Positions 1 to 28,496 of a stretch of 64,000 nucleotides of DNA are shown one piece after another. Position numbers and translations under genes: made by a program. The DNA is from Paracamarosporium sp. OC-R06-R3 (lineage: Eukaryota; Ascomycota; Dothideomycetes; Pleosporales; Didymosphaeriaceae). The notes beneath the pieces are model-generated. The model searched no databases and was not told where the DNA came from. It saw nothing but the letters and a program-made list of their open reading frames with translations. The stretch covers positions 186,198 through 250,197 of the forward strand of contig JACVRA010000061.1 of the NCBI GenBank assembly GCA_019828545.1, given 5' to 3'. Every line of letters starts with the position of its first letter. The stretch's first letter is position 1.

Positions 1-2682
1 TGCAGCGAACACGGCTGTGTATACGAAAGTCGACGTCGGGGTACCGAGAGCCCATGCCCCTTTGAGACCTTTGGCACCGGTGCGCCTAGTCACAGCGGTC
101 GAGTTCGCAAGGCAAGATACGCATCTACAGGTGCCCGGGTTGCGAAGTGCCCGGGACCAGAGTGCTATCATTGCTACCGGGACATGCTTCGTGCGTCGTG
201 CGCTTCCGAGAGAGATGCGTGCGGGTGTTGCGAGCGTAGAAGCTCTGCCCGGCGGGAAAGAGGTCAATTGGGAAATCGTGTATGTTGGACTGGCCACAAT
301 GCCTTCGAGCCGCCGATACAAGCTCGTTTGGAGATTCAGTGCTGTCGTCGCGTGGTCTGATCGAAAAAGTGGCTGACCTAACGCGCCTCTTGGCGACGGC
401 GGAGCGGAGCGGAAAGGGAGAAGTGGGACCCACGACACCTGGGTCGCATAGCTGTGCGCACTACCAGGTCAGGGGAACGGATCATGTGTTCAATGCATCA
501 GAAAATATACCGGCAGTATATGGTCTAATAAGCCCATCGTTCCCGATGACGCCCGACCAACACTCGGCGCCGAAGTGGGAGAGATTTGTTTCGCCGTAGC
601 AAGTACTCTCGTTTGGTCTTCAGCATTGGGTATCTGGTCAGCACACAAAGCATTGTTTGTCGGTCATGTGGCACACTGTTCGCTTCGGCTGGTGAACGGC
701 CGCCTGCTGGGACCTTGCTATGCCGTTCGAGTACTGATAGCACAGAGCAACGCAATTCACTTCACCCACATGATACAGTACTCTGTCCAACAATGACACG
801 ACACTAAGCTACTCCTTATCTCCATATCTTGACTCTTGGAACTAGAAGTGTGAAGTACTGACTATACGTCATAGCATCATTCAGCGTAACCACGCCACAG
901 TATCACGATAACGGTCGGCCACTGGCAACGGACATCACACAACACGCCATAGTATATGCATGAACCGTACCAAACTCTGTAAGCCACTTGGTTGCCCAGT
1001 GCCTTTGATCCCGTGGACAGTCGTGCACCACACCGGACGATGCCTGCTACACATGTAAGCAGTGAGTTCCGTGGCGGTAAGATGCTTCAGACACAGCAGA
1101 CCATACAACACTTTCAAAACTATGTCGTTTACTTGCGAATTCCAACTTATTATCACTACATGAGAGTGGTGCCAGTCGATGGTATAGATGCACACCTATC
1201 TTCGGGTGCTTCCATACCATCACTGCCTTTAATCCGAAGACAAGTGTCTCAGGCAGCTGCAAGAACCTCGATATTGCCTGACCTTTCCATTCTTGACGTT
1301 TTCTCTCTGCGAGCTAATGGCGGCGTTGCCAAGCTCGGTCACTGCAGTTTATTCAGATTAACCGTAATCTACACCGCTCGCTTCACGGTCGCAACCCTGC
1401 AGGCATCGTTTTTCGTATCAACGAACTCTAACACGGAAATGAGCGGGTCTTGATGATCTTGCCACATCACCTTCGATGCCTCTAAGCGGATATGCAGACC
1501 GGCAATTTGTCGCTAAAGTCACGTTTCCAGCGGGCATATATGGTGAGTTCACTTGTATTTTGAATGATTCCCCTTGAGCACCGCCTAGGTTCTTTATACG
1601 CTATTTATAGTCATCGTGCCCTCTTGCAATTATATGAGATCCTTGGAGAATATCTGTATCTGTTTTACACGTTCTCAAGAACACATTCACACGTCCCTGA
1701 TTAATTGCTCGCTTAGCTCCATGTCTTTGAACGAAGGGTACCTAAAATAGTACCAACACATATGAGCTCGTACCACAAGAAGACACGGCACCTGCAACGC
1801 CGTTGTGGGTGGTCTATCCATGCTGAACGCATTTGCATCGGGCATACCGGACGTTTTGATAGTAGAAGGCTAGTCGAAGGTCTGGACCCGCAACATGCAA
1901 TCAAGATCAACCCGAAAATACGGGTGTTTGTCTGCAAGAGAATGTTCCGTCGTGCGTCGACCTGCCCAGACCCTGGGAAAAAGCCCTGAGAGAGTAGTTG
2001 AAATGTCCTTTGGCTACTTTGAGCACCTGAAGGTTGCACCTTATCCCATCATGGTAGACGAAGCCCGTATCTGTCACCCCGAGCATTGCTAATTGTACTC
2101 CAACCGAAAGTCTCGGGCGCCGCATGCATAGTACTTGTTGCCTAGAGATTGGGCCTAGCCCATTGGCAAACAATATCCCAGAGTTTACATCCCTGCTTCC
2201 ATCAGCTTCGGCGCAGACCGCCATGGTCATCCACCCCACACGATCGTCGTGCCACTCATGTACTTCCGCATTGGTCACGCTTGAGTGTGATCGTGGAGTG
2301 TCTCCCGCAGGTTCGCTGCCCTATCAGTCGCCCTTCACGCCATGCAATCTTCCCCCTACGATAGCCGTCTAGTCTTTGGCGCAAAAGGACCACGTTATGA
2401 CGGATGATGCGGCTTGCTTTATCCAAATTAGCGATACGGAATTGAGTTTCCATAACACAGTGGCAGAGATCGAATGCGGATAGTACATCCTTCGAAGGAG
2501 GTAGCAACGGTGGCTCCTTAGCACGGAATATATGAATATATGCCTCATCACGTCCTGGTGTCGATCGGAACCAAACTCCACTTTACTCAACTCATAAACC
2601 TTCTTGATACTTTCCAGTTCTTCTAAGCGCTCTTAACAAAGACAAGTACCCACTTCGGATATTGGTATCCAGCAAAGACGTT
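1..2682. other. left flank without a recognisable gene
   Basis: Several open frames of 60-150 codons occur on both strands, but none shows a recognisable motif, a consistent splice structure or fungal-like protein composition. The last few hundred bases are presumably the promoter of the repeat precursor that starts at 2683. No RNA gene or mobile element was seen. Confidence 0.5.
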
Positions 2683-3617
2683 ATGCAGTACAGGCTGGTC
2701 TCGGTAATCGCCGCTGGCGCTTTGTTCGCCAATGTGAGCGGTCTGCCCATTGCGCAGCCGGAGGTATGTGACTCTCACCACTTGTAGTGCGTCACTTCAG
2801 TCGTCTCAGCGATACTCATCATCCACAGGTCCAGGACGCTGTCAGCACAACTCCACCAGATGATATCTCGCTCGGGCCGCCGAGTACCGTCATCACCTGG
2901 GGCAAAGAAAAGCGAGATTCCCAGACCCCGCCGGACGATATACAGCTAGGCCCTCCAACGACCATCATCGGCTGGGGTAAAGAGAAGCGAGGCGAGGCTC
3001 CGCCAGACAAGATCAACCTTGGCCCGCCCTCTACCGTGATCACTTGGGGCAAAGAAAAGCGTGATGCCAATGCTCCTACCCCGACCGACAGCTTTTGGTT
3101 AGGCAAGCCAACTAGCATTGTATCATGGGGAAAAGAGAAACGAGACACGACTCCCCCGGACTTTGGTCTTGGTCCGCCCAGCACAGAGATCGGATGGTCG
3201 AAGCGAATCAATACTCCTCCTAGCATCGTCGAGCTTGGTCCACCTTCCACTCACGTTGGATGGGGAAAGGAAAAGCGTGATACGACCCCTCCGACCTTTG
3301 AACTTGGGCCACCAGACTCGACGATTGGCTGGGGCAAGGAGAAGCGTGACACAACTCCTCCGACCTTTGAACTTGGGCCACCGGACTCGACGATTGGCTG
3401 GGGCAAAGAGAAGCGTCAGACGACCCCTCCGACCTTTGGACTTGGGCCCCCAGACTCGACGATTGGTTGGGGCAAAGAGAAGCGTGACACACCTCCTCCC
3501 ACGTTTGAACTTGGGCCGCCAGATTCGACTATTGGATGGGGAAAGAGAAGCCAGACTCCACCAGACAGCATTGAGTTGGACCCGCCGTCTACAGAGATAA
3601 CCTGGAGCAAGCAGTAA
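2683..3617 (+). CDS. secreted Kex2-processed repeat precursor (KEP/RiPP-like)
   Basis: Two exons, 2683-2763 and 2829-3617, with a phase-0 65-nt intron (GTATGT...CCACAG), give 289 aa. Exon 1 encodes a signal peptide (MQYRLVSVIAAGALFANVSG) and a short pro-stretch. The rest is eleven imperfect repeats of about 21-29 aa. Each repeat has the pattern TPP-x(3-5)-LGPP-x-S/T-x-I/V-x-W-G-K-E-K-R, and ten dibasic KR sites separate the units. Kex2 in the Golgi would release about eleven peptides, and carboxypeptidase trimming would leave termini near the invariant Trp. Repeats 5 and 10 end WSKR and WGKR, so they lack the extra E-K. There is no Tyr or Cys in the units. Known families with this layout are dikaritin (ustiloxin-type) precursors, repellents and alpha-pheromone precursors. 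The unit length and the lack of Ste13 sites argue against a pheromone. No UstY/DUF3328 or tyrosinase gene is nearby, so product and function are unknown. The architecture is clear; the role is inference. Confidence 0.88.
3279..3548 (+). repeat. tandem coding repeat, ~69-bp period, 4 near-identical copies
   Basis: Units at 3279-3347, 3348-3416, 3417-3485 and 3486-3548 encode repeats 7-10 of the precursor. The first two are identical at the protein level. The third differs at two residues. The fourth differs at one residue and lacks the E-K codons. The outer units of the gene are more diverged, which points to recent expansion or homogenisation in the centre. Confidence 0.9.
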
Positions 3618-5725
<2,108 letters not shown>

Positions 5726-6372: not shown

Positions 6373-7753
6373 TTACGCAGCTACACCTTGCGGTGCACCA
6401 CTTGGGGGAGCGCTCTCCTTCGGAGCCTGAGCCTGGGCTGCCTGAGGCGGAGGAGGCAGCAGACCCTTGGACAGCCAAAGGTCGACGAGCGGCTGCATGG
6501 GCTCGATCTCCTTGTCAGTAATGAGATTGAACAGCTTGCCCACATTGATGAAGTGGACGAAGCACGTGTTGAGTTCCTTGTACGCGCCTGCGTGCCAGAA
6601 AGGGTCCAGCCAGTGGCCGTGGTAGATGTGTGCGTAGCAGCGCATCATCTGACGGTAGATGCTCTTAATGTCGGACTCGAAGGTTTCTGGGAAACCAGAG
6701 CTCTTGCCGAGCCAGTCGCGGCCGGAGAGCTGCGAGAGGGGAGCGTTGAGACTGGTGGGACCGAGCGGTTGGGGGTTAGATGATGGGGTTAGAGAGCCGG
6801 AGGCGTAGCTAGAGGCCGAGTCGGTGAAGCGGGCTGAGGTTGTGTCTGTGGGGAAGATGGAGGGGTCTGTGATTTTGCCTGAGATCCATTTCTGGACTAG
6901 GTTGATGTATTGGATGGCAGGAATCTTGATAGGCTTCTTGTTGTTGTCGAGCCATGTGTATGTGTGGCTAAAACACTGTTAGGGGAAGAGAGGTGACTTG
7001 TGGAGTGAAGATACTGACCCGCTTGCAGACATGGTCGGGCACACGTCTGGGTTGCAGCATGGCTTGCCAGTCCTCTCGTCCGGAACCTTGATGATGTTTA
7101 TCATCTGCTCTAGCAAGCGGTACTGTTCGACGACTGATCACACGAGTTAGTGCAAACCACGTGAGGAGAGACATAACAGCGTACCTTGGTGCGCCAACCA
7201 TTCTCCTTCCTCGACGAGGTTGGGCTTTGCAGCCAACGTCATAAAGTTACCTCTGACAATCAAAGACGAGTACTCTTCGCGGAAGAAGAACGGTGGCCTA
7301 CGCGAACCAGATGAGGCGGCGCCCTCTGAAGCAGGTTGGCTTTCAAAAGACATGGCGGAAGACAATGCGGGGGAATGAGGCATAGGCGGGAAGTTTGGTG
7401 TCTGGCCTGGGGCCGCAGAAGGCGAGTAAGGGCCGCTGGTAGTCGGTGAAGGCGTGCCGTTACCCTTGCCCTGCTGATTGTTGCTCTTGTTGGAGCGTCC
7501 GGCCAATCCTTGGCGTCTGATAGAAAGAGTTAGAAAGCGGTGCAGCTTTGGAGGGGGATACGAAGGGCTTGGGCAGGCGAGCAAGGCGACGGTTAGTGAG
7601 GCTTTGGGGAGACACAGAGGCTGAGACACAGGGCAGCCCAGACGGTGAAACAAACGGCGACTGAGCGGTCTGGGACACGCAGACGCATTGCTGCAAGCAA
7701 TTGGGGGGAAGAGCCACGCCAAGCACTCACACGCTGGAAAAAAAGGACGCCAT
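6373..7753 (-). CDS. MOB2: MOB kinase activator, MOB2-type
   Basis: Minus-strand exons 7731-7753, 7185-7516, 7019-7133 and 6373-6967 give 354 aa. The first exon is only 23 nt and encodes MASFFSSV up to a GTGAGT donor. Its 214-nt intron splices to RQGLAGRSNKS, an N-terminus I recognise as typical of fungal MOB2. A Ser/Pro/Gln-rich linker follows, then the Mob1/phocein domain (SLIVRGNFMTLAAKP, VEEGEWLAHQ, a CCNPDVCPTMSASGHTYTW zinc-site region, AHIYHGHW). MOB2 binds and activates an NDR kinase (Cbk1/COT-1) controlling polarity and septation. The C-terminus ends in a Pro/Ala-rich tail. An alternative reading would extend open frame across the long intron to 8031, but that N-terminus is low-complexity. 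Assignment to MOB2 rather than another MOB is likely, not certain. Confidence 0.88.
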
Positions 7754-8137: not shown

Positions 8138-9602
8138 ATGGCCGACAGCTCGCCCGACCCTTCGAATGCGCCGTCCGAGGATGACAATTTCACAGGCGGC
8201 GCGCCTGCTGCAGAGGAGGAAGCCGGCACGCCTGTAAACTTGGACGACGACGACGACTTGGACGGCGATCTCTTTGGCGATGACGACGACGCGGACCAGC
8301 AGCCTGAGTGAGTTGCTCCAGAAACCATTCCCACGCTGCGGCGCTGACAGTAGGCAAAGGCAGCGCAAGCTGGACGATGAAGAACTTGATTCGGGCGACG
8401 ACGAGGGCCGCAACGACCGCGCTGCGAGAGACACGCCCGACGTCGAGACGCAAAACCAGAACTTTACCTTTGAAGACGCCGAAATTGCGCGTCACGCCGT
8501 GCCTGAACCCAGCGATGGCGAGCTTTATCTCCTCAAGATCCCAGTCTTCATGTCCGTCGATCCGACGGCCTTCTCCCACAAGACGTTCCAGCCACCGACG
8601 ACGGACCATCACTCGAACAAGCCCGCGTCAGACCACTTCTCCGCTTTCAATACCGCCATGACCACAATTCGATGGCGTCGCTCGCCTTCAGATCACTCAA
8701 AGCTGCAGTCAAACGCACGTGTATTGCGGTGGTCGGACGGCTCTCTCACGCTGCAACACGCCAATGATCCAGTCAACCAATACGAAATGAACGCGCAGAT
8801 GCTTGCGCCGCCACAAACCAATCCTGTGGTGCCTACGCCTACTATGGTCAAGGGAAGGCGACGAGACGACCTCAATAAGGAGAGCTACACGTATCTCGTG
8901 GCACCTTGCGAAGGACCGAATGTCTTGCGCGTAACAAACAAACTAACAACTTATCTGTCCGTCGCGCCCACCTCGAACACAAAAGATCAAGCCTTAGAAA
9001 AGCTGCAGAATGACTTAGCAGCTGCCGCATCTCGTGGCCGCGACGACGCAAATCATGCCATCTCTTTCATTGACGTGAACGAAGATCCTGAACTCCGCCG
9101 CCAGCGAGAAGAGGTGCAATACAAAGAGAAATTGAAGCAACAACGGGCGCGAGAGAAGCATGTGCTTAGAGAGCAAGAGCGGAGCTCTCGCGTATTAGGC
9201 AAGCCCAGAGGCGGCTATGGTCTCGATGCCGATATGCTCGAAGGTGGTGAGGGCCGAAGGAAGGGTGGAGCCAAGAAGCCGCGGGCTCAGGCGCGTCGTG
9301 GGCACCAAGACTGGAGCGATGACGAAGACGATGCTTACGCTCGACGCGGGGCCAACAAAGAGGATGAGTATGACGAGTCGGACGATTTTATCGCTGACAG
9401 CGACGAGGAGCCAGAAGTGGTGGAGGACGATGAGGATGATGATGATGGTATCATCGAAGAGCCACGGAGCAGGAAGTCCAGAGACGCGCAGAGTCCGAAA
9501 CGGAGTAGGGGCAACGATGACGACGAAGACGACGATGTGGTCGCTCGGTCGAAGAAGAGAAGGGTGGTGGTGGACGACGACGACGACGACGATGATGAGT
9601 AA
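8138..9602 (+). CDS. LEO1: Leo1, Paf1-complex subunit
   Basis: Exons 8138-8307 and 8351-9602, joined over a short 43-nt intron, give 473 aa. Leo1 is part of the nuclear Paf1 complex that travels with RNA polymerase II and supports histone modification. The N-terminus is acidic (DDDDDLDGDLFGDDDD). The central Leo1 domain runs from about residue 100 to 300 and includes LYLLKIPVFMSVDPTAF, TTIRWRR, RVLRWSDGSLTL and ESYTYLVAP. A charged helical region (REEVQYKEKLKQQRAREKH) and an Asp/Glu/Lys/Arg-rich C-terminus follow. It is divergent from MOB2 with 384 bp between the start codons, so the promoter is probably shared. Confidence 0.95.
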
Positions 9603-15804: not shown

Positions 15805-17426
15805 CGTGGGAAGATGATGTGTTTTTGATTGACTTGGTAGGTGGGCCTATGTAAGGTTAGGGTTTCTAATATCTAGAATATCGTGTGCATTGTCCTTAGG
15901 TGCATACCTACTAATTGAAAGGACAGTTAATTGTGTTTTTTTTTGGGATTGAAAGAAGATTTTCGATGCTTTATATATCATCAAGATGACTCAAGCGGAC
16001 TTGCAGTTGGGCCGTATAATCCTTTGCATCCTTACACCGGAATATGCAACCAACGCCCCATTTGCATGGTACACGCTCGCACGAAATCAGGCTGTCACCA
16101 ATCAAGCTCTGCGTTGGCAGAGATTCATGTTAAAGCATAGATAACTGCCTAATGGTGAGCCCAGTAGGTGGCCATGTCGGTCTTGGCAGCACAGCCGCGT
16201 CTGCCTAAGTATCCACAATCCTACACTTGAGCTGCACTGTAGCCTTCAACACCCTATCAGGATTCCGATCTCTAACAAAGATATATAGGTCCTCGGTACT
16301 TCAATATATCTGCGGTTTATATGCTAGCGATGTGAACTTGCTTATGCGCTCGCTTAACTTAGCCCATATTTTAACGCTTCTGCTGGTCATACAAAGTTGG
16401 CGACACAAGCGTGGGTATAATGGTATGAACTTGAGTTGGTCGGAATGTACGTACCAAATGATCGCGGTCTAAAGTATGATGTATCTATATGCCCGTATAT
16501 CGCAAGGCTGATACCTTTCAAGAATGGTCATTACACCATCCCACACATTGTAATACCCGATATGAACATGATCCAGGGAAATAACGAGTTTAGAGAACCC
16601 GATTGTAGCGCGATATCGATGATATTGTAAAGCTCACCCGAGATCTGATCTTTGGGTGAAACACCGTGCCTCCGTTCCCATATTACCTACGTTGGCATGA
16701 TACGTCAATTGGCAGGCTAGTTATTAGTTTAGATTCGACAGAGTAATGAGATTATATCTAAAATTATGCTTGAGAGTATTACTGTACAGGTCGTTTTCAA
16801 GCCTTTTCTTTCGGCGCGAGTGGTGAAAGAGGCATGCGAGGCGGCAGTCAAGAATCGCTAAGAACTTGAATCCAAACCAAACAAATGGAGAGCTGTGTCA
16901 CTAAAGCCGGAGCAGCCCCATTTTAGAAATCAGCTTAACACATTGGAGGCTTAAGGAAACAGAACGTTGAGAAGAGCTGACGAAAAGATCCTGTGGACTC
17001 GCTTATGTAACCTCAATGTGGGGCATCACTAGCAAGCAACGCGGTATGCGATATCATTTTCACGTTCGCTTCTCACAGGTCCATCGCCAAAACAACCATT
17101 CGATGTTATTCGGAGCCTATGTGTGGGTATTGCGGCCCTGTGGTATGCCCTCTCCGCCTCTTGAACGCCCGACTCCAATCGTAAAACACGCGCTCGAAGC
17201 ATTTGATCTATGCCTAGATACAACAACACTACCGTTCTATGTCACAGCAGCACGTTCGCCTCAGCGGAACCCGCGATTCTCCTCGATTACATATGTTAAC
17301 CGATCGGTTGGCAGCGAGCAGTATGTAGCGCCCGCTGCACCTGTACTTAACAAACTGTTTCTCATTGGAGCAAACATCTCTCGGCAGAGTTTATTTATTT
17401 CTTAAAATTATGACCACCGGTTGGAA
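15805..17426. other. 1.6-kb AT-rich intergenic region
   Basis: No supported gene. Short open frames at 15931-16140, 16227-16630 and 17016-17405 lack motifs and consistent splicing. The proximal part presumably carries the promoter of the AAA gene. Confidence 0.5.
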
Positions 17427-18705
17427 CTATTGTTGTGGTGGCTTGCTTGCAAGGCGTTTTTCTTGCTCTTCTTTCGAAAGCGTGTCCCATTCCGCTACAT
17501 TCTTGTCCTATGAGGGTGATTAACAATTGATTCGGAAGTAACAACGTTCCGAGGGCTGCACTTACCCATTCAGCAACACAATCTGGTTTCCAATTACATT
17601 TCTCTACTTCGCCGTACATGGGGTGATTGCGGCGCGGGTGAAGCGTTGGCCAACCCGATGCATGATAGTGGTGTTTGACCAGCGCTCCCCTGGAGTCGTG
17701 ATTTCCTGAGTCAGAATGCCCTTGGCCTGCGGCAAAAGCTTCGACATTGAGGACAAGGATACCGTTAACAAGCCTTGACTCGGCCAAATTGTGGAAAGGA
17801 TCCCAGGTTACTTCTTTACCTCCATTCTGCGCGGTCATCTGTGCGAGAACTGCGTCTGTGAAAGCTGATGGGCCCGTTCCGCTGATGACCTCATTAAAAT
17901 CAAGCTCAAGCTGACCGACAGGAACACCTTTCTTCTTGGATAGGTTGTGGATCCATTCTTGGATGTTTTCGATCAGTCTCAACATGACAGGAAGGCGAGG
18001 TTTAGCTGCGAACGTCCATTGGCAGAATGATTTGCACTTAGATCCTAGGACAGGATGACCCGCAAAAGCAGGCTCATCGATCTCCACTCCAACGATCATG
18101 TCAACCTCCAGCTCGTTATACCGCTCAGGGATGAACCGTTGAACGGGCCGCAAACATTCTACGTCAATATCCGCATATACACCACCCTCAGCATACATGA
18201 TCAAGTAACGGAGGAGGTCAGCTCTTATAATCGTTATGTTGAGCTCCCGGTAGAGGTCGATAATGTCCGGACGATTGAAACCTTGCACGCCATAGTGTTC
18301 TTCGACATATTCAAGGGCGTTGTCATCTGTCAGCACTTCGTACCGATAGCTTGGGTTCTTTGCCGGCCATGTCTTCGCTGTATCCGAATCTCGTTGCTCG
18401 AAAGTAAGCGGCCCCTGTTTCCATGTCTGCCAGATCTTCTTCGGTATGGTGGTCGTTGATGTTTGCAAGGGCTGTTGGTACTTAAGCTCCCGTCTGTATT
18501 TGTGTGCCGCTCGGATAGGTGCAGTGAAGAAGTGGGTGTTGGCGAAGAACAGGAATAAGAACAGAAGAGCAAGGTATGCCGGTAGCACTCTCCGGACTTG
18601 AGTGGTCAATCTGCTCCTGAAGTGCGAGGTAATTGGAGAATGGACGGGCATCTTCGTGTTGAGATGGAGCTTCAGCGGTGGAGGTCTGAAGGACCGTGTT
18701 CGCAT
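17427..18705 (-). CDS. Och1-like DXD glycosyltransferase, type II membrane
   Basis: Exons 17566-18705 and 17427-17507 (58-nt intron GTAAGT...CATAG) give 406 aa. A single membrane anchor near residues 40-58 (AYLALLFLFLFFANTHFF) puts the catalytic domain in the Golgi lumen. IPKKIWQTWK opens the Gly_transf_sug (DXD) domain, and YAEGGVYADIDVECLRP holds the DxD motif that binds nucleotide-sugar and metal. HHYHASGWP near the C-terminus is also typical of the Och1 family. A second Met 18 codons downstream (18651) is an alternative start. Family members are alpha-1,6-mannosyltransferases or related enzymes. The exact sugar is not readable here. It neighbours an acyltransferase and a GT8-like gene. 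Confidence 0.9.
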
Positions 18706-19522
18706 GCTGGTATCAATGGGAAATTGCAGCTGCGCGCCTTTTTGCCAAAGTCAGGCACAAGGAGCTATGGGGACTCAAAAGCGAGCTCCCTGGTGCCCAA
18801 GCTTCCATCTCCCCGTCCTTAGCTACTATGATCTGCAGCTTGGACGAAGAGCCTCGGCCAGTTGGTGACATGACGTCGACAAAAGAGGCCAATAAAGAAG
18901 CGATATACGTTCGGAACGTGCGTGAAAGGCAGGTCGATATCTCACCCGCCCGGGGAGAACATTGAACGCTGCATGTGCATACCGACACCTTGCAGGCCTC
19001 CTCGGTAGACCGAGCATAGTTGGATAGTGCAGTAGCCAAGCTAAAGCTTACACGGGTAGTCTCCGCTGTTGCAGGACGCTACCGCACCGTTTTCGGGTCA
19101 CAGCGATGTGACGCCGCTGATTCTGCCAGGGACGGCCCTGATAAACCACTCACATGCTTGGATGAACTGCCAGTCCGTGTCCTGCATGTGAAGCTCGTCC
19201 CAAATTGTTCGCTGATCTTGACTCCATATTAGCGAACTTTATCCCCGCATATGCAGTTCACCCCTGCAAATACACCAACAGCCGACCAATGAGCACCGTT
19301 CGGGGGCAAATTCCCGCTACAGGCTCCCTCGGTATGGAGCTCAGGCTTCTTGCATCACGCAAGCCAACGCTTGCGTCCCAATGTCAAAGCTTCTGTGTTG
19401 TTTCTGGGTCATCCTGAGTCCTACCAATGTGTCTTGTATTCAAGAGCATTCTTCTCTAGTGAGCAATCTGGGACACGGTCCACAGTTCATTCATCAATTG
19501 TTCGTTTTCAGCAGCCTACGCA
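18706..19522. other. divergent promoter region
   Basis: About 820 bp between divergently transcribed glycosyltransferase and acyltransferase genes, suitable for shared regulation. Overlapping short open frames are unsupported. Confidence 0.5.
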
Positions 19523-21004
19523 ATGCCTGCGAAATACGAAGGTCTTCTAGAGCAAGATCGTATGCAGGAAATCAACCTGAATTCCGCGACATGGAAATCA
19601 GTACGGCCCGCAAGATGGAGTTTGGACATCGTTCGACCTCAATTCTTGACCATCCGTCCTGGCAGTCCGAAGAAAAGATTGAGGCCGACAGCTTGGCTTG
19701 ACGGCCTTCGGGGATTTGCAGCTTTACTTGTTTACATCCACCACAACCAGCTTTGGGCACATGGCCTACACGGAAATATTATTTATGAGAACGCATTTGG
19801 CTATGAGGATAGACACTACTTTGCTGCTTTACCGTTTGTTCGGCACCTCTTTTCTGGTGGTCACTTCGCTGTGGCTATATTCTTCGTCATTTCGGGATAT
19901 GTTCTATCTCTGAAGTCACTAGGCTTGATTCACAAAGGCCAACACCAAGTTGCAGCTGACAGCGTTGGATCAGCTCTCTTTCGGCGATGGCTTCGTCTTT
20001 ACATACCAGTGGTCGCAGTCAGTCTGGTGTGTTTAATTCTGCGTCATTATCCAGGACTCTATGTCGCGTATGGAGAACAGAAAGGGAGTTTCCGCGAGGA
20101 CCTCTGGACCTACTACATTACCTTCAAAAACTACAGCTTCGTTTTCCTCACCGGCAACATGTACGAGTTCCCTCTACTTTACCACCCGCACTCTTGGTCG
20201 ATTCCAATCGAATTCAAAGGATCAATTGTCATCTACACCGCACTCTCAGCACTTTCTAGATGTACTAGAAACGCCCGACTATGGATTCAGACCGGTCTTA
20301 TAATCTACTTTTTGTATATCGTTGATGGTTGGTACGGCGCATTGTTCACGGCTGGCATGCTACTATGTGACCTGGAGTTGCTCGCCCTCAACGACAAATT
20401 GCCGCGCATTTTCTCTATGCTTGAGAACTTCAAGGAACTTATCTTCTTTCATCTCTTCATCGTTGCCATGTACCTTGGCGGAGTTCCATCCTGCGACGGA
20501 GATGACTATATGGGCATCCTAAAGAAATCACCAGGTTGGATATGGCTCTCGTACTTAAAGCCTCAAGCTGTCTACGACGGGAAATGGTTCTATCTGTTCT
20601 GGGCTGCCATCTTCATGGTTTCATCGGTACCTCGTCTTCCGTGGTTAAAACAATTCTTCGAAACGCGCTTCTGCCAATACCTCGCCCGCGTTTCATTCGC
20701 TCTGTACCTGGTACATGGACCAGTCATATGGCTTTTGGGCGACCGCCTCTACGCTGCAGTTGGCTTTCAAAGGGATGAGTACAAAGACAATCTTTCAGAG
20801 TGGATTAACAAGTTCCCCCTCTCTATGAAAGGGCCGATGGGGCTGGAAGTGGCTTTCTGGGTGCCACAGATGATCATTTTGCCAGTCACACTATGGGCAG
20901 CAGAGGTGGTGACTAAACTGTTTGACGAGCCCAGCGTTAAGTTTGCGAATTGGCTCTACAAAAAATCACTGGCACCTCTGTCTTCTTCAAAGCCGGTAGC
21001 TTAG
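19523..21004 (+). CDS. acyltransferase-3 family membrane protein
   Basis: Intronless, 493 aa. The sequence RLRPTAWLDGLRGFAALLVYIHH starts the acyltransferase-3 domain; the His pair corresponds to the conserved membrane His of this family. About ten hydrophobic segments follow (for example FAVAIFFVISGYVLSL, LYIPVVAVSLVCLIL, RVSFALYLVHGPVIWLLG). Enzymes of this family move acyl groups onto sugars, lipids or secondary metabolites. Its place between two glycosyltransferases suggests acylation of a glycan or glycolipid, which is inference. The start at 19523 gives a ~50-residue cytosolic N-terminus. Confidence 0.9.
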   Translation: MPAKYEGLLEQDRMQEINLNSATWKSVRPARWSLDIVRPQFLTIRPGSPKKRLRPTAWLDGLRGFAALLVYIHHNQLWAHGLHGNIIYENAFGYEDRHYFAALPFVRHLFSGGHFAVAIFFVISGYVLSLKSLGLIHKGQHQVAADSVGSALFRRWLRLYIPVVAVSLVCLILRHYPGLYVAYGEQKGSFREDLWTYYITFKNYSFVFLTGNMYEFPLLYHPHSWSIPIEFKGSIVIYTALSALSRCTRNARLWIQTGLIIYFLYIVDGWYGALFTAGMLLCDLELLALNDKLPRIFSMLENFKELIFFHLFIVAMYLGGVPSCDGDDYMGILKKSPGWIWLSYLKPQAVYDGKWFYLFWAAIFMVSSVPRLPWLKQFFETRFCQYLARVSFALYLVHGPVIWLLGDRLYAAVGFQRDEYKDNLSEWINKFPLSMKGPMGLEVAFWVPQMIILPVTLWAAEVVTKLFDEPSVKFANWLYKKSLAPLSSSKPVA

Positions 21005-21677
21005 TCCTAATCGCACGAATGATACTATAGAAATGACATCGGTTTGAATCACAACGCCCTACTTTCCGCCATCGGTACTTCCGATTCATACGTGCTCGTG
21101 TGCCGCCATTTCACATGTACCTCGGAGAGCAGAACCGGGAGCTGGACGCCGTATTCCTGCAGCCTCAGAATTGCTCAAATCCCTGCCACCAACATGGGAA
21201 GGGATTATTGGCTATCTACAAATGGTCTTGCGCCCGACGCTAGTACCCCATGGGGGCGGCCCATTAGCGGGGTAAGTTCGACCCCTGTACTACGCCGCCG
21301 GATCAGCGTGGTCGTTCATAGCGGCAAAGACGCCTACCCCTCGATGCAACGGAAACAAGATTGCGATGACCAGGTTCGTTGATGCACAAGATTCCGTATC
21401 CAAACGAAGCATGTCGAGTACCGCGGCATGGCGTGGGATCGTCATCACGTATGGCATTTCATGTGCAGTTCATCGGATGTCGCAATGGTGCTGGTCATGT
21501 ACTGATACCCCTAGGCTTGTCGCTGTCGTTCACTATAACCCAGATACTATTGATCTGTCGTCCATAGATAACTAGAACGAAATAGGATAAGACCAATTTC
21601 GAGGTTGAGCTTCGCATCTAATGAATCAAAGGAGCTAAAGCTTCTTACCTCGTTTCCCCCCTCAATCTCCAACTATC
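21005..21677. other. intergenic between acyltransferase and GT8-like genes
   Basis: About 670 bp, no supported gene. It contains the promoter of the next same-strand gene. Confidence 0.5.
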
Positions 21678-23009
21678 ATGCGGCGATGGCGCAATGTCGC
21701 GACAGCGACACTCATACTCGCAACAATTGTATACTTCGTCGCACTGCATCAAGAAAAGATACCAGAGGCCTACCAGTTTAGCACACCATTCACAGAACCG
21801 GAACAACATGAATTCGATAGCAGCATCACGCAAGGAGCGCCTGAAAGGTTGAGCAATCCGGAAGGCGCAAAGATACCTTCGGATTTGGAGTTACACCCAC
21901 CACCAATCTTCCCGACTGAAGACGTACCACAAAAAGACAAATCTCCACCACCCGACGAGAGCGGCCTGTCAAACCTTCATATAAATCACGAGCCAGATCT
22001 ACCATCACCGAACGAGTTGCAGCTATCTCCACCAATTGAACCAACTCAAGTAGGCTTTCAAGCCGAGTTTGGCTTCCAACAAGATCTAGACCTAGACTTA
22101 CCAGTTGACGCTCTGAAATCCTTCAGCAACATCAAACCACACAATTACGATCCCAATGGAGTCAAGACAAATGTCTATGCTACTTTCATGGCAACCAGAA
22201 ACCCCTCATTGAAAGATCCCTACTACATGGCCATTCACTCGCTCATATATCGTGTGCTCTGGTCGCCTAGATCACGAACGGAGAAATTCGCTTTCGTCGT
22301 CTTCGTTGGTGATTTTGTTACGTCTGAACAACGAGAGTTGCTCACTGGTGCCGGCGCTCTAGTCCGTGAGCTCGCACCGCTCGAATGGAACCCCAATGTC
22401 GAGGGCATCCAGCACCGTTGGAAAGACCTTTTTGCCAAGCTCAACATGTGGAAGGAGACGGAGTTCTCGCGAATTCTCTTTCTAGATGCCGATGCATTTC
22501 CCGTCATAAATATCGATGCCATGTTCGATATTTCCCTCGAACAGAACTGCATAGAGTCCAAACTCTCTTCAGAGGATCACTTACTGGACGGCACCTCTAC
22601 TTGCGAGCCTTACGTCTTCGCTGGCGTCCCGCAGGACCCTCTCAACCAAGCTTCTATTAATGTCAACGTCGGTAGTTTCGTGTTCTCGCCTTCAACGCTC
22701 ATGCATCAGCGCTTGTTACAGAATTACGTGAATTTCGACAAGTACGACGTCAAGATGGCTGAGCAAGCTTTCTTGAACTGGCAATTTAACATCAACGGGG
22801 CTTTTCCGGCCCAAGCATTGGAAAGGGAGTGGGGTGCTGCGTTTCCCCAAGAAGACGATGAAGGGAAATTCAAAGTAGTGCATGAGAAGTTGTGGAGCGA
22901 AGAGAGGGAGTGGATGAAGAAGGAATGGGTTGATCAATGGGTGGAGATGACGCAATTCTACATGGGCGAGGAATTCAAAAAACTGAGAGGCTTGGATGGC
23001 ATGGCGTAG
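21678..23009 (+). CDS. GT8/glycogenin-like glycosyltransferase, type II membrane
   Basis: Intronless, 443 aa. The N-terminal anchor (VATATLILATIVYFVAL, residues 7-23) is followed by a ~110-residue Pro/Glu-rich stem. The catalytic part begins around VYATFMATRNPS. RILFLDADAFPV holds the DxD metal/nucleotide-sugar site typical of GT8 and glycogenin-type enzymes, and WKDLFAKLNMWK precedes it as in that family. NINGAFPAQALEREW resembles the distal substrate loop. It is probably Golgi-resident. It is the third member of the glycosyl/acyl-transfer group with 17427-21004. Confidence 0.85.
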   Translation: MRRWRNVATATLILATIVYFVALHQEKIPEAYQFSTPFTEPEQHEFDSSITQGAPERLSNPEGAKIPSDLELHPPPIFPTEDVPQKDKSPPPDESGLSNLHINHEPDLPSPNELQLSPPIEPTQVGFQAEFGFQQDLDLDLPVDALKSFSNIKPHNYDPNGVKTNVYATFMATRNPSLKDPYYMAIHSLIYRVLWSPRSRTEKFAFVVFVGDFVTSEQRELLTGAGALVRELAPLEWNPNVEGIQHRWKDLFAKLNMWKETEFSRILFLDADAFPVINIDAMFDISLEQNCIESKLSSEDHLLDGTSTCEPYVFAGVPQDPLNQASINVNVGSFVFSPSTLMHQRLLQNYVNFDKYDVKMAEQAFLNWQFNINGAFPAQALEREWGAAFPQEDDEGKFKVVHEKLWSEEREWMKKEWVDQWVEMTQFYMGEEFKKLRGLDGMA

Positions 23010-23477
23010 GATTAGCAGATACGTAGTGTTGTTTTGTCATGCATGACTGACGATATCCTCAAGTAACCACATTCGCACGAATTGCAAAATTAGTACAATC
23101 CCATGTCTAAGCGTTAGTAGACCATAGTGAGTCATCAATTTGGGAATTCTATGCACCGATCAAAGTGAACAGGCGATTCATTGAGTTTATGGGCCGTAAT
23201 GATAGAAAGCGAGCGTGTGGTGAACTAAAACTATTCACTAATACAAAAAAGAAGCTGAAAACACCAGTCACACACCACGTTTACCAGATGTTAGCCGTTA
23301 TCTGTACCTACGGTTGGAGATAGTTTCCAATATAAGTGACTCGTCCGGTAGAACACCCGTAAATAGAACTGACTGCGGCTCTTCATACGGATAGTCATGC
23401 AGTTCCACGACACTTGCACGATCTGCAACCCCAACAACGTAGTTCACACTCACATCTGATCGTGCATCTGAGAGTAC
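23010..23477. other. intergenic, convergent 3' ends
   Basis: About 470 bp, AT-rich, nothing recognised. Confidence 0.5.
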
Positions 23478-24731
23478 CTAGTTGAAAGGCGGACCAGCTA
23501 CTGGCACACCCGGTACCTGTATAGCTCCAATGCCACCAAGTCCAATCGGCAGCGAGATGTCACTACGTGTGGCACTACTTGTCGATATAGCCTTGGTTGT
23601 AATGCTTGCCGGTGTAGTCTTAGTTGTAGTGCTTGTCGATATAGTCTCAGTTGCAGTGCTTGTGGGTATAGTCTCAGTCATCGTGATTGTCGGTATAACT
23701 TTGATTGCAGTGCTTGTCGGTATCACATTGATCGTAGTGCTTGTCGGTATGACCTTGATTGTAGTGCTTGTCGGTATAGCAATGATTGTAGTGCTTGTCG
23801 GTATAGCCTTAATCAAAGTGATTTGAGGCAGCACAAGGTTTATCTGAGACTTAGAGGTACTCGTTGGCACACTGCTTGTAGTGGAGTTACTGGGGTCCTG
23901 GAATGATGATGTTGAAGTGGTAATGGTATCTTGCAATGTCAGGAGCGATGTTCCGTTGGCCAGCCCTTGAGACACTGAAGACACAGATGTCAAGCTTCCC
24001 GGCGCGGTAACAAGAAGTGGTATTGTGTTGTTCGCAAGGCTGAGTTCCAATTGCTGTGATACTCCGCATCCAAGTACCCTCGGTACCTCGCCGCAGAATG
24101 GAAGCACGCAAGGCGTCAAGCACAGCACTCCCGGATTGACAAAGACATTGAAAGCTTCCGGCCAAGCCCATCCCTTGAAACCCGTTGATCCTATTACAAA
24201 TGTCTGTTGACCTTTCACTCCTGGTAAGCATGCGCAGTAGCCGTTCCAGCATGTCGCCCCTAGACCGCAAGGCTTCGCACCAAGCACATTGCATTTCTGA
24301 AGAGGGCATAGCGAAGATGGCGTCCCTAGAGGAGTAGGAATGGCAGGAGCTTTTTGGCTCACTAGTGTGGTGTATACACCAACACCTGTGACTTGTGGGG
24401 TTGGTTGGATAGGCAATAAAGGCGTTGACTTTGATGAGGGGAAAAATCGAGAACAGCGGTAGTCGAATGGACAGCGTCTGCAATTGAGAGCTCGGAATGG
24501 GCAACTTAGCCATGGTCCCGGGAAGAAATTGTCCATCCTTTGCGATCTGCTGTTGCCGTTCCATGACGATACTTGGTCTAAATCGGCATCTGATAAGGCT
24601 GCCCGGAGGGGCAAGGGTTGATGTTGGGATTCTCCATCGCTGTCGTGGGAACGCTGATATATAGGTAAGTTCTTCGCAAGCGAAATAGCCGCGAATGGCA
24701 ATGAATATAGGATGAGCAGGTGATGTTTCAT
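23478..24731 (-). CDS. secreted Cys-rich, EGF-like protein with Thr-rich repeats
   Basis: Intronless, 417 aa if started at 24731, where MKHHLLILYSLPFAAISLA is a clear signal peptide. The open frame extends to 24896, but that N-terminus lacks one. The mature protein has a Cys cluster (CPFRALNCRRCPFDYRC). A larger Cys-rich module resembling fungal EGF-like domains follows (CNVLGAKPCGLGATCWNGYCACLPG and the region around GWAWPEAFNVFVNPGVLC, about residues 135-215). The C-terminal half is Ser/Thr-rich with nine tandem nonapeptides of the type IKVIPTSTT, probably O-glycosylated. No GPI tail is obvious. A cell-wall or extracellular role is likely; the function is unknown. Confidence 0.8.
   Translation of the reverse strand: MKHHLLILYSLPFAAISLAKNLPIYQRSHDSDGESQHQPLPLRAALSDADLDQVSSWNGNSRSQRMDNFFPGPWLSCPFRALNCRRCPFDYRCSRFFPSSKSTPLLPIQPTPQVTGVGVYTTLVSQKAPAIPTPLGTPSSLCPLQKCNVLGAKPCGLGATCWNGYCACLPGVKGQQTFVIGSTGFKGWAWPEAFNVFVNPGVLCLTPCVLPFCGEVPRVLGCGVSQQLELSLANNTIPLLVTAPGSLTSVSSVSQGLANGTSLLTLQDTITTSTSSFQDPSNSTTSSVPTSTSKSQINLVLPQITLIKAIPTSTTIIAIPTSTTIKVIPTSTTINVIPTSTAIKVIPTITMTETIPTSTATETISTSTTTKTTPASITTKAISTSSATRSDISLPIGLGGIGAIQVPGVPVAGPPFN
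23571..23813 (-). repeat. 27-bp coding minisatellite, about 9 units
   Basis: Tandem 27-nt units encode the nonapeptides IKAIPTSTT, IIAIPTSTT, IKVIPTSTT and so on. The units degrade towards the C-terminus (TKTTPASIT). It is a likely site of length variation between strains. Confidence 0.85.
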
Positions 24732-25046
24732 TGTGCAGGGTACAGAAAAATCTGCGTCTGAAGTCGCGGTGGGGTAGAAGAGATACTTTATGATTTGACG
24801 TGCCTGAATGAGGTGTACAACACGCAAGGGGGAGCTTTGACGACTTGGAAATTGAAGGCAGTGAAGAATGCAGGATAAGAACAGCGGAATGCACACATGG
24901 TGCCAACGTGAACACCTAAAGACCTTGACATAGACTTTACTCTAGAAGTCGGAACTATATTCGAGCACGAGTGATCCTAGGCTCGTAGATTTGAGGTTGA
25001 ACATCCCTCGGGCCTTTAGCGACTGCTTCTTCTAGCAGCAAGTATC

Positions 25047-25886
25047 TTACCATTTCTCCACCGCGGGCCTTAGGTCAATCTCCCACGTGAAATTGGTCCG
25101 TGGCTGTGTATGTAGGTACCAGTAGTCGTTCGCAATCTATACACGTTAGCTTAATATAGCTTGCGGAATGCAGATACGCACCCCGTCCGCGCTCAGCTTG
25201 GCCTCTGGCCCAAGCTCCTTTAACCATTCTTTCGTTCGAGGTATGTCGATAACCCCATCGATGATTGCATGACTCACGTGCACGCCCTGCGGTCCAAACT
25301 CCTTCGCCAGACTCTGAGAGAGTGCTCGAAGCGCCCACTTACCAGTCGAGAAGGACGATAATTGCGCGCTGCTCTTGACGGATGCGGTCGCACCGGTGAA
25401 GATGAGCGAAGGCGGGTGTTGAGATCTCTGCTCTGCACCTTTGAGCAGAAAGGGGAGTGTGGCTTGGGAAAAAAGAAAGCCACCCTTTGCACTAACAGCT
25501 AGCGACTGAGTGAAAGCATCTTCGGGTAGCTCCAGGAACGGCTTTCGCACGAAGCCTCCGCTGGCGTTAAAGATTGCTGCCTTTTTTCCAGATTAGTCAC
25601 TGATCACAGCTAAGGTTTTGATACGACGCACCGCAGCCCCCACGTCAGAGCCAAACTCTTTCTTGATGGCATCTACAGCATTCTGGACGCTCTTAGAGTC
25701 TGAGACGTCTGTACTAATACCGATGGCTTTTCCGCCGCTTGAGTTGATCTCCTCAGCGAGGCTCTTGAAATTATCGGGGTTTCGTGCAAGCAAAACGACT
25801 GGATATGTTGCTGCAAACTTTCGTGCAACAGCGGCACCGGTACCAGCACCAACGCCTGCGACAATGGCAATCAACTTCGACGACAT
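25047..25886 (-). CDS. atypical short-chain dehydrogenase/reductase
   Basis: Exons 25632-25886, 25182-25580 and 25047-25136 give 247 aa. Introns are 51 nt (GTGCGT...AAAAAG) and 45 nt (GTGCGT...GTATAG). The N-terminal cofactor motif is VAGVGAGTGAAVARKF. NASGGFVRKPFLELPE and SLIFTGATASVK are typical SDR landmarks. Where classical SDRs have YxxxK, this protein reads FSTGK, so the catalytic Tyr is replaced by Phe while the Lys is kept. The C-terminus (WYLHTQPRTNFTWEIDLRP) matches that of the second SDR in this window at 47019-47888, so both belong to one subfamily. The substrate is unknown. Confidence 0.88.
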
Positions 25887-26245
25887 TATGAATGATTGAT
25901 ATGGTTGGAAGCAAAGGGAGCAATGTAGTAGATGGAGAACAGGAGGGCACTGCTGTGAGCGGGGTAGTGGGCTGCAGGTCACACCTTTATCATGAGCTTT
26001 GATTAGATATTTGGAGGTGCTTAGTAAGATGTAGCGTGGTGCAATGTTGGGGTCCTATTGCGCAGTAGCGAGTAGCGGAGCTGGTCGGACGCCGAACAAC
26101 GTCACGATTGTTAAGCGAAGCAAGCACTAGTAAACCTCCCCCGCTAGACCATAACCATAACCACAGCCATAACCACAGCCACAACTCCAGGGCCGATTGT
26201 ACCAGAAAACCTATCCTTCCCCGTAATACATAGCGTTGGATAATT
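25887..26245. other. intergenic with hexanucleotide repeat
   Basis: About 360 bp between two same-strand genes. It contains the SDR promoter and the CCATAA/CCACAG repeat at 26149-26184. Confidence 0.5.
26149..26184. repeat. short hexanucleotide repeat (CCATAA/CCACAG)6
   Basis: Six imperfect hexamers in the order CCATAA, CCATAA, CCACAG, CCATAA, CCACAG, CCACAA. It is a simple-sequence repeat, not the fungal telomere unit. Confidence 0.8.
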
Positions 26246-27225
26246 TCACTTGGTGAGGGTTCCTAAAATATGAGGAACAGTTGCGTGCCACTCCTCGTCT
26301 GGGGGTTGCACAATATCAATCCTGTCCCAAGAGCCAGCCTGTCTGAGGCTCTTCTCGGTATCTAAGCATCGAGACGTGATCAGTATATGTTCCAGAAAAG
26401 CGCGCAGTGGATGTTGGAACGAATCTACTTACCTCTGCACAACTGGCAACCTCCAATGATATGTGGCCAGAATAGGTTGACGAGTGCTAAACAAGACGTG
26501 AGCTGGAGTGTTGCGAAGAAGAATAGAGCCCACATACCTTGATAAAATCTCATGAACCAATTCCCTTTCACCCGCACATGTTCAAAGACGTACCATCTTC
26601 CGCCTTTCTTGAGGTATTGGTAGAGTTCAGTAATGTTTTTTTCAGGTTCAGGGATGCCACACAGGCAGAGAAGGGTGACAATACAGTCAACACTTCCCTT
26701 TTCAATCTTTCTGCAGCTGCCATCATCTTCAACAATTTCAACCGATGAGATGTCCTGTATCCCAACCGGAATGATGTTGTAAACGTCGTCAAGACCCGCC
26801 CGGTGAACTCGTATTCGCAGCCTTGAATGTGCCGCTGCGTTTGGCTCGACACCATACACTGTGAGATTGCCAATATTGCTTTTGGCATACAGATCGACCC
26901 AAAATCCAGGTCCGGGACCGATGTCCAATACAACGCCACTGACCGGGGGTACCACAGGATCTTCGACCACGTGAGCCTGACTCACCCGACCTTCCAGAAG
27001 CGCTGTAATGCGAGGCCCATTCCCAAATCGAATGTTAGCTCCAGCCCGGGCCCAAAATGCGTTGAACCAGGCATCTCGAATTCGAGAGACAGAAATGGTT
27101 TGGAGTTGTTCAGTTTGTAGCAAGCGTTTCACGGTTCCAGGCAGAAAAGATATGGCAATACCCAGGAACACCCAGGGGTAAAGCAGCGACCAAAAGGCTT
27201 CAACGGAGGATTCCACGACAGTCAT
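26246..27225 (-). CDS. membrane-anchored SAM methyltransferase (METTL7-like)
   Basis: Exons 26538-27225, 26433-26486 and 26246-26361 (introns 51 and 71 nt) give 285 aa. An N-terminal hydrophobic anchor (LLYPWVFLGIAISFLPG) precedes a class I methyltransferase fold. The SAM-binding motif I is VVLDIGPGPGFWVDLYA, and YGVEPNAAAHSRLR is motif II. FEHVRVKGNWFMRFYQ and LFWPHIIGGCQLCRDTEKSL resemble METTL7/Methyltransf_11 proteins of fungi, some of which methylate thiols. Unspliced reading would stop early after an extra ~17 residues at intron 1. It lies next to an SDR on the same strand. Joint function is only a possibility. Confidence 0.88.
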
Positions 27226-28496
27226 TTTTAGTGCTGTTCGGGTTGGGATAGAGGGTTGGCTGAAATGGACGTTCTTGTGGTCGACGTAGTGGACTTGCGG
27301 GGATATTTGAAAGAGGCGGGGTATATGGTTAACATCGCTTCTAGGCGGGCGTCGGTCAGCTTTATATACAACCCCGCAGATAGAGCCGCCTTTCAGCGGT
27401 ACTGTTTGTGATTACCGCCGAGCCTGTATTGGGTAAGGCGCATATTTGTATCACAGAGGGTGGGTAGAGAATCCCAGAAATTTATATGGTCCGGCGCTGT
27501 TATTCGTATAAAGTTAGCGGCTTATTCTGGACGGATTGATACGCGCAAAGATTGTGTGAGCACTGAGGCCAACTGCCACCTGGTGGGATATCTGAGAACT
27601 CTCGCTTGCTTATGCATCGCGTCCCCACATGGCTAGCTATTGTGTAGAAGTTTGTATGGAAGTACTTTGCGAACAATGTATAATGTATTTCTATGGTGTT
27701 AACTAAAAGTTATTGCCATGTAGTAAACTGGCTAGTTTCAAGCTTGATCTCTGGGCGATATGCCACTCTTGATGTAGAATGTCTTCTGATGAAACCTGGA
27801 ATGAGATTCCAATGAGGTTAAACGTGTACGGAGCTATGTTTATACATCATATCAGCCATGAGGCTGTTACTGTGAAATATGAGTTGCGAACGATCGATAC
27901 TGGAAGTGATGCTTGTGTTCTTGTACTTGGTGGAGGACTACCTAATATTTCGTGGATCGTGTGAATGAAACCTACCTTGTAAGATTGATTCACGCTAATT
28001 ACAATACGCTCTAGCTGACACCACTAATATATGCAAGATCATGTCTCTCACCATCAAACCGCAACCTTCATTGTCAACTCGGATACGGTCTGCAGGCGAG
28101 AATAGCTTTTGTGAAGCTACATATAGTCAATCTCCGCTAGTCGTATAACTTAATGCAACCATCGAGAAGGGTTGAAAAGTAGATATCCTAGCGTGTGGGA
28201 GAATAGGTCGCGACCGGTAAGGGTGGTGGGCAACGAAGGGGTATACACAATACACTCAAGATGGTATCGCTCGTGATCGTAACCTATGTCGTTGTTACAT
28301 GCCATCGTAGGCGTGTTCATTGCCCAAGCTGAACTGATATAATGCCCCTAGTTTTCCATGCATTGTGGCATATTCGGAAGTGGTGGAGACATGTTATGCA
28401 TTCCGTCCGCTCGATGTAAAGAGGTACAGCCCGCGCCTATTCCCCGGGCATCCCAGCCATGAAATTGTCGTCAACCAGAGAAAAGCACGCCGCCGT
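27226..28496. other. 1.3-kb intergenic, gene-free
   Basis: AT-rich. Short open frames such as 27779-27964 have no support. The left end carries the methyltransferase promoter. Confidence 0.5.
27361..27368 (-). promoter_or_regulatory. TATA box of the methyltransferase gene
   Basis: The minus strand reads TATATAAA about 140 nt upstream of the start codon at 27225. Confidence 0.5.

Follow-up and report, generated by a model that had tools for sequence, protein, structure and literature searches.

A predicted Kex2-processed repeat peptide precursor with uncharacterised relatives in other Dothideomycetes

The gene at positions 2683-3617 (+) of the window, by which we mean the whole 64-kb stretch of DNA analysed, is a real gene for a repeat precursor, and it belongs to a family of a known kind that is unnamed, as far as we found, and has uncharacterised relatives in other Dothideomycetes. 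We put at roughly 0.75 the probability of the whole reading, namely that the product is a KEP prepro-protein whose cleavage yields linear peptides, probably unmodified and 19-25 residues long, the first one 34. The texts of two surveys (PMC6339444, PMC7329392) define KEPs by a secretion signal and at least 3 repeats divided by Kex2 sites, and the protein described here is alike in having a secretion signal, as judged by hydropathy, and 11 similar units with 10 KR sites.

We recognised no paper as describing the family in the open-access literature, a search that took in text of the surveys (PMC6339444, PMC7329392). An earlier, sequence-only reading had called the precursor undescribed-looking, and this stands for the literature searched, the kind of system being known. 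KEPs occur widely among fungi, yet their functions are largely unknown according to the text of PMC9769878. The present gene, found once in its genome, could be deleted, which would make the role of a non-pheromone KEP directly testable, and the conserved core, sharply defined from Pleosporaceae to Patellariaceae, offers a concrete peptide to synthesise.

Gene structure and repeat units

The window corresponds to C276:186198-250197, C276 being the label of the source contig, in a genome of 43.1 Mb and 337 contigs. Two exons encode 289 aa plus the stop. Exon 1 (2683..2763, +) encodes the predicted signal peptide MQYRLVSVIAAGALFANVSG and the start of the pro-stretch, LPIAQPE, and exon 2 (2829..3617, +) holds the whole set of repeat units and the stop codon. 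The start of the precursor is hydrophobic, with a mean Kyte-Doolittle value of 2.14 across 14 residues, a measure of hydropathy only, and the N-terminus resembles that of relatives in Alternaria and Bipolaris (M[QE]YR...S). We placed the cleavage site by eye; the putative secretion signal rests on hydropathy and the relatives' starts.

The 65-nt intron (2764..2828, +) has GT-AG borders (GTATGT...CACAG) and lies in phase 0. We infer that it is spliced, and the gene models of relatives back this. Those of P0005 and P0007 have a V...Q insert directly past the signal peptide that is absent from the near-alike P0003 and P0009, and P0012, P0018, P0024 and P0027 resemble P0005 and P0007 at the insert site (all by eye). 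Such an insert would be expected of a GTN...CAG intron read through at the site of the window intron, and so supports the intron. The coordinates first proposed were correct. DNA and protein searches, in which the best candidates were scored, found the gene once in its own genome, where the remaining protein matches were its own antisense strand, twice (E 2.2e-5 and 1.25), and a repeat protein on contig C54 (E 0.28).

All of the units lie on the forward strand. Unit 1, together with the pro-stretch, occupies 2829..2915 and ends in ...DDISLGPPSTVITWGKEKR. It is followed by unit 2 at 2916..2990 (DSQTPPDDIQLGPPTTIIGWGKEKR), unit 3 at 2991..3062 (GEAPPDKINLGPPSTVITWGKEKR), unit 4 at 3063..3143 (DANAPTPTDSFWLGKPTSIVSWGKEKR), unit 5 at 3144..3206 (DTTPPDFGLGPPSTEIGWSKR) and unit 6 at 3207..3278 (INTPPSIVELGPPSTHVGWGKEKR). 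Units 7-10 (3279..3548) are near-identical tandem copies with a period of ~69 bp, and unit 11 with the stop codon (3549..3617) reads SQTPPDSIELDPPSTEITWSKQ. TRF reported an array at 3249-3551 with a period of 69, 4.4 copies and 87% matches.

The sequence-only reading had described eleven repeats with a strictly kept W-[GS]-K-(EK)-R ending. The W-[GS]-K part held in 11 of 11 units, and the KR of the Kex2 site in 10 only: eight units end in GKEKR, unit 5 in WSKR and unit 10 in WGKR, and unit 11 runs as WSKQ into the stop, without a Kex2 site. In the exon-2 protein, W[GS]K was observed 11 times against a maximum of 4 in 20,000 shuffles, and LG[PK]P-x5-W 10 times against a maximum of 1 in as many. 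The proposal of a Kex2-type repeat precursor is upheld. LGPP was found in 9 of the 11 units. The precursor is free of Cys and its sole Tyr sits in the signal peptide; the units have neither residue, as had been noted.

We compared all pairs of the 11 units codon by codon. In the core (W-9 to W+2), pS was 0.748, which is near saturation, and pN was 0.252, and the first parts of the units were looser (pS 0.788, pN 0.409 over all pairs). The pN/pS ratio was 0.34 in the coding frame versus 0.57-1.88 in the five other frames. Judged from this comparison of sequences, the units have diverged under purifying selection, and it is strongest in the coding frame.

Relatives and the conserved core

A search with the single sequence found 5 relatives, a profile made of those and the window protein found 21, and a wider profile found 48 at E up to 0.1, together giving at least 50 distinct relatives (P0001-P0050). 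Since ~8,000 candidates were scored in each protein search, these counts are lower bounds. A profile search of fungal proteins, as had been suggested, was thus part of this work, and the gene is no lone oddity but belongs to a Dothideomycete family. The weakest relatives, at E 1e-7 to 5e-3, share short repeats, and some of them may not be true kin.

Fourteen of the 50 relatives carried a source name, and these came from nine genera: Alternaria (Alternaria dauci and Alternaria sp.), Bipolaris (Bipolaris oryzae, maydis, zeicola and sorokiniana), Ascochyta (Ascochyta clinopodiicola and rabiei), and Stemphylium lycopersici, Boeremia exigua, Lindgomyces ingoldianus, Amniculicola lignicola, Didymosphaeria variabile and Patellaria atrata. 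With one species looked up per genus, all nine genera were Dothideomycetes, eight in Pleosporales and one in Patellariales. The 14 named relatives are all annotated as "uncharacterized" or "hypothetical". A precomputed Pfam domain was absent from the whole set of 50, and a Pfam scan of the window protein and seven relatives gave no family above the cut-off.

Cys was absent from 32 of the 50 relatives. The distant relatives P0019, P0032, P0033, P0037 and P0043, and partly P0038, bear a Cys-containing C-terminal segment past the repeats, in which CPTY[TS]CVP occurs in five of the six and in none of the remaining set of 50. Pfam returned nothing above the cut-off for P0019, P0032 and P0043.

The conserved unit can be written D-T-I-x-L-G-[KP]-P-[ST]-T-x-[VI]-[TS]-W-[GS]-K(EK)R. 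We derived a consensus from 191 distinct W-anchored stretches, in which the W is fixed by the anchoring and any W without a following basic site or protein end was excluded, and obtained D-T-I-E-L-G-K-P-S-T-x-[VI]-T-W-G-K-R. Position W-2 was [VI] in 95% of the stretches, W-6 was P in 80% and W+2 was K in 88%; at W-7, K (38%) exceeded P (28%), whereas the window gene has mostly LGPP. Hydrophobic residues stood at W-11 in 79%, at W-9 in 79% and at W-2 in 97% of 182 distinct stretches, besides the W itself, and elsewhere in 1-34%. No solved structure matched the family profile at E up to 1.

We also examined whether the order of units is kept between relatives, using 18 chosen pairs among 16 proteins, and rejected the idea. 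It was unsupported in all 5 pairs with the window gene, for which 1,024 to 4,703 of 5,000 permutations were as good. Two pairs fell below 1%, Alternaria dauci with Bipolaris sorokiniana (43 of 5,000) and P0022 with P0013 (9 of 5,000), and the next was Stemphylium with Bipolaris sorokiniana (217 of 5,000). Given 18 such tests, we do not argue that any individual peptide is conserved.

Predicted peptides and their place among known precursors

In the proposed mechanism, the signal peptide would bring the precursor into the secretory pathway, a kexin would cut after each KR, and a Kex1-type carboxypeptidase would trim the basic end, so that ~11 linear unmodified peptides would be secreted. Each would contain the core Phi-x-Phi-G-[KP]-P-x-[ST]-x-[VI]-x-W, from which single units depart slightly, and then G, S or GKE. 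On this view the conserved core would be the active part and the variable Pro/Thr-rich start of the unit a spacer. For precursors of this sort, the text of PMC9769878 describes cleavage by Kex2 past the dibasic site and removal of the basic residues by Kex1, and the genome has one match to a kexin-type P-domain. The predicted products are 19-25 residues long, apart from a first one of 34 that retains the N-terminal pro-stretch, and the 17-20 residues expected earlier were too short. They are acidic and hydrophilic (pI 4.1-5.6, GRAVY -0.22 to -1.12), and one predicted peptide, DTTPPTFELGPPDSTIGWGKE, has a monoisotopic mass of 2244.06.

Two features sit less well with this processing. At P4 of its Kex2 sites the window gene has K or W, whereas the text of PMC8528282 gives an aliphatic residue as the preferred one, and the window units are without a Ste13 signature. 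The Ste13-type spacer of pheromone precursors, a doubled [DE][AP] that follows KR or RR, occurred in none of the 10 window fragments and in 17 of the 201 fragments from all 51 proteins, spread over 9 of the 50 relatives; a Ste13 XA/XP spacer occurred in 1 of the 10 window fragments and in 48 of the 201 across the window protein and its 50 relatives. Some relatives have a Ste13-type spacer right before the core, as in KR-EAEA-QVDTIGL of P0032, a placement that hints at the core as the mature peptide portion.

The AlphaFold2 model of exon 2 had a mean pLDDT of 39.8, with 222 of 262 residues below 50 and few strands. Such low confidence is as would be seen with an unstructured precursor, and repeats with a 20-row alignment may score low anyway. 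The only strands were ISL/STVITW in unit 1 and INL/STVITW in unit 3, arranged like a hairpin around GPP at pLDDT ~40-50, and the model of P0011 (mean pLDDT 49.7) was without them. We considered a beta-hairpin core, hinted at by the hydrophobic spacing and these strands, and with very low confidence and its absence in P0011 we keep it as a lead only. C-terminal amidation, which would call for a Gly after the last core residue and a PHM/PAM enzyme, gained no support: G stood at W+1 in 71% of the 191 stretches (otherwise chiefly S, D and N), and PF01082 gave no match, but neither did its control.

Peptides of 9-24 aa form the commonest length class of KEPs in most Dikarya (text of Le Marquer 2019, PMC6339444). 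The motifs spelled out in that text are EDYXI, DADAATXYV[A/V]D, YVW[G/A][G/S], SPPHKT, QKLKVD and XSDW, and the window core matches none of them; motif 1 of its Fig. 8 or the supplementary tables of either survey may hold an unnamed entry. Linear KEP peptides ending in a conserved Trp (-AADW) have been detected in Agaricomycete fruiting bodies, and the text of PMC9769878 reports no specific function for the peptides examined. The window peptides are likewise predicted to be linear and have a conserved Trp near the end, but those of the Agaricomycetes, which are basidiomycetes, have a short ending and Ste13 motifs, whereas the window gene has a core of ~12 residues, 1-3 residues past the Trp and no Ste13 motif. 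Trp-ended KEP peptides are known in Agaricomycetes, so a Trp at the end has a precedent.

Possible functions and genomic surroundings

We prefer, tentatively and at somewhat less than even odds, the reading that the peptides act outside the cell as fungal signalling peptides other than a mating pheromone, and we place it ahead of a surface coat. The fixed core, the variable spacers, the pheromone-like spacers in some relatives and the conservation across nine genera argue for signalling. Against it, the copies in one precursor differ much (pN 0.25), far more than would be expected of pheromone copies, divergent copies would suit a loose surface or cocktail role equally, and unit identity is not retained between the window species and its relatives. 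A bolder proposal, that the family is a class-wide Dothideomycete peptide hormone, Trp-ended, linear and other than a mating pheromone, of the form DTIxLG[KP]P[ST]Tx[VI]TW-G and read by an as yet undescribed receptor, we consider speculative and unlikely.

Surface-active structural peptides like Rep1, which would assemble on the hyphal wall through beta-branched alternating [ST]-x-[VI]-x-W ends, are the strongest rival, though an unlikely one. In its favour, the repeats are numerous and inexact, the pairs W-2/W and W-11/W-9 show an alternation of hydrophobic residues, and units 1 and 3, and only these, form the hairpin-like strands of the exon-2 model; those strands are, however, of the low pLDDT given above and missing in P0011. 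The Rep1 repellent of Ustilago maydis is likewise released by Kex2 as imperfect repeats, and ten Rep1 peptides measure 35-53 aa (text of PMC4617103). The Rep1 peptides are amphipathic, whereas the window peptides, at a predicted 19-25 aa, are shorter, acidic and hydrophilic. A Rep1-like repellent would also be expected to form amyloid-like fibrils. The suggestion of a hydrophobin-like surface peptide found no support, as hydrophobins have eight conserved Cys and the window protein has none, and the same acidic, hydrophilic character counts against it.

That the peptide is secreted to act outward, on a plant host or on competing microbes, seems to us quite unlikely. Several of the named carriers live in association with plants, which counts in its favour; against it, conservation across nine genera is unlike that of a fast-evolving effector. 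In the text of PMC6339444, plant pathogens have more KEPs than do saprotrophs or pathogens of animals, but their share of the secretome is unaffected by lifestyle. Synthetic peptides from Coprinopsis KEPs, which are other peptides than these, were without antibacterial activity (text of PMC9769878, a study in which Coprinopsis KEPs were expressed in Pichia pastoris).

Returning to the chemistry of the peptides preferred here as signals, we weighed whether the gene could encode the precursor of a modified RiPP, dikaritin-like or new, with enzymes encoded away from the gene. Dikaritin and ustiloxin-type precursors share this KEP architecture of Kex2 repeats, but dikaritins have Tyr in the core and UstYa close by, and the window gene has neither, nor Cys in its units. 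Six-frame genome searches with UstYa (PF11807) and tyrosinase (PF00264) gave no match within the window, in agreement with what the sequence-only reading had said of UstY/DUF3328 and tyrosinase over the 64 kb, and the 29 of 45 window frames that were scanned (stop-to-stop, at least 150 aa), plus one shorter frame and two for Arf, gave none either. The nearest UstYa match on the contig is at C276:123474-123767, ~65 kb left of the gene. In the text of Umemura 2020 (PMC7329392), DUF3328 (UstYa) genes lie near 22% of KEPs, at a mean of 3.09 genes, and the window gene belongs with the majority that have no UstYa nearby. The genome as a whole holds 75 UstYa and 39 tyrosinase exon matches, and tailoring-type frames (dehydrogenase, methyltransferase, acyltransferase and two glycosyltransferase-like) lie 14-24 kb right of the gene, with a P450 45 kb right. 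All of this weighs for the RiPP alternative, and the UstYa matches and tailoring-type frames weigh against unmodified peptides. Arf, Mob1 and Leo1 stand between the gene and those enzymes, however, and nothing that we observed points to the novel modification once envisaged; we regard a modified product as improbable.

To the right, the nearest Pfam-matched genes are Arf (5008 on), Mob1 (6373-6978, -) and Leo1 (8238-9602, +), and past Leo1 an oxidoreductase and an AAA protein come ahead of the tailoring-type run. This run comprises a glycosyltransferase (17395-18750), an acyltransferase (19463-21004), a weak glycosyltransferase-8 match (21639-23009), a short-chain dehydrogenase (25593-26054) and a methyltransferase (26425-27411). 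Spanning 17395-27411, beyond the housekeeping genes, it is possibly a small metabolic cluster. A 27-bp tandem repeat of 8.6 copies (23578-23810) lies within a 487-aa frame (23478-24941, -) that has no Pfam match. The P450, transporters, a transcription factor and an amidase are 45-60 kb away. At the left edge, the window's first 468 bases belong to a 767-aa frame whose weak PPR match stays below the cut-off; further left, among the 10 of 38 listed left frames that were scanned, come an AhpC/TSA frame and then a P450 ~19-21 kb left of the gene.

That the gene encodes the alpha-type mating pheromone precursor of its species is the weakest alternative, and we give it a very slight chance, since the window units, in divergent copies, have neither PYGxPxG nor two Cys, the types of Dothideomycete alpha pheromone in the text of PMC6339444, and lack the Ste13 signature, and the family is found in Alternaria and Bipolaris, a co-occurrence at genus level only. 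The design is the same as in ascomycete alpha-pheromone precursors, with Ste13-type spacers in some distant relatives, and the genome has one match to an STE2-type receptor (C282:73906-74787) and none to the exact DNA pattern PYG[LM]P[IV]G. A looser PYG pattern gave 20 scattered matches, no pair of them within 40 kb, against 34 for the control. As the fungus's own alpha pheromone was not found by these PYG-type patterns, that small chance is left.

The 75 UstYa and 39 tyrosinase exon matches suggest a fungus well stocked with enzymes of the dikaritin type. We observed a second repeat precursor in the genome, at L039:3449-4201 (-), equivalent to C54:20448-21200, with units of the form AAATYAPLVYVGGLK(K)R and EA/DA spacers; with UstYa exons (C54:22732-23350) only ~1.5 kb away, it looks to be of the dikaritin type.
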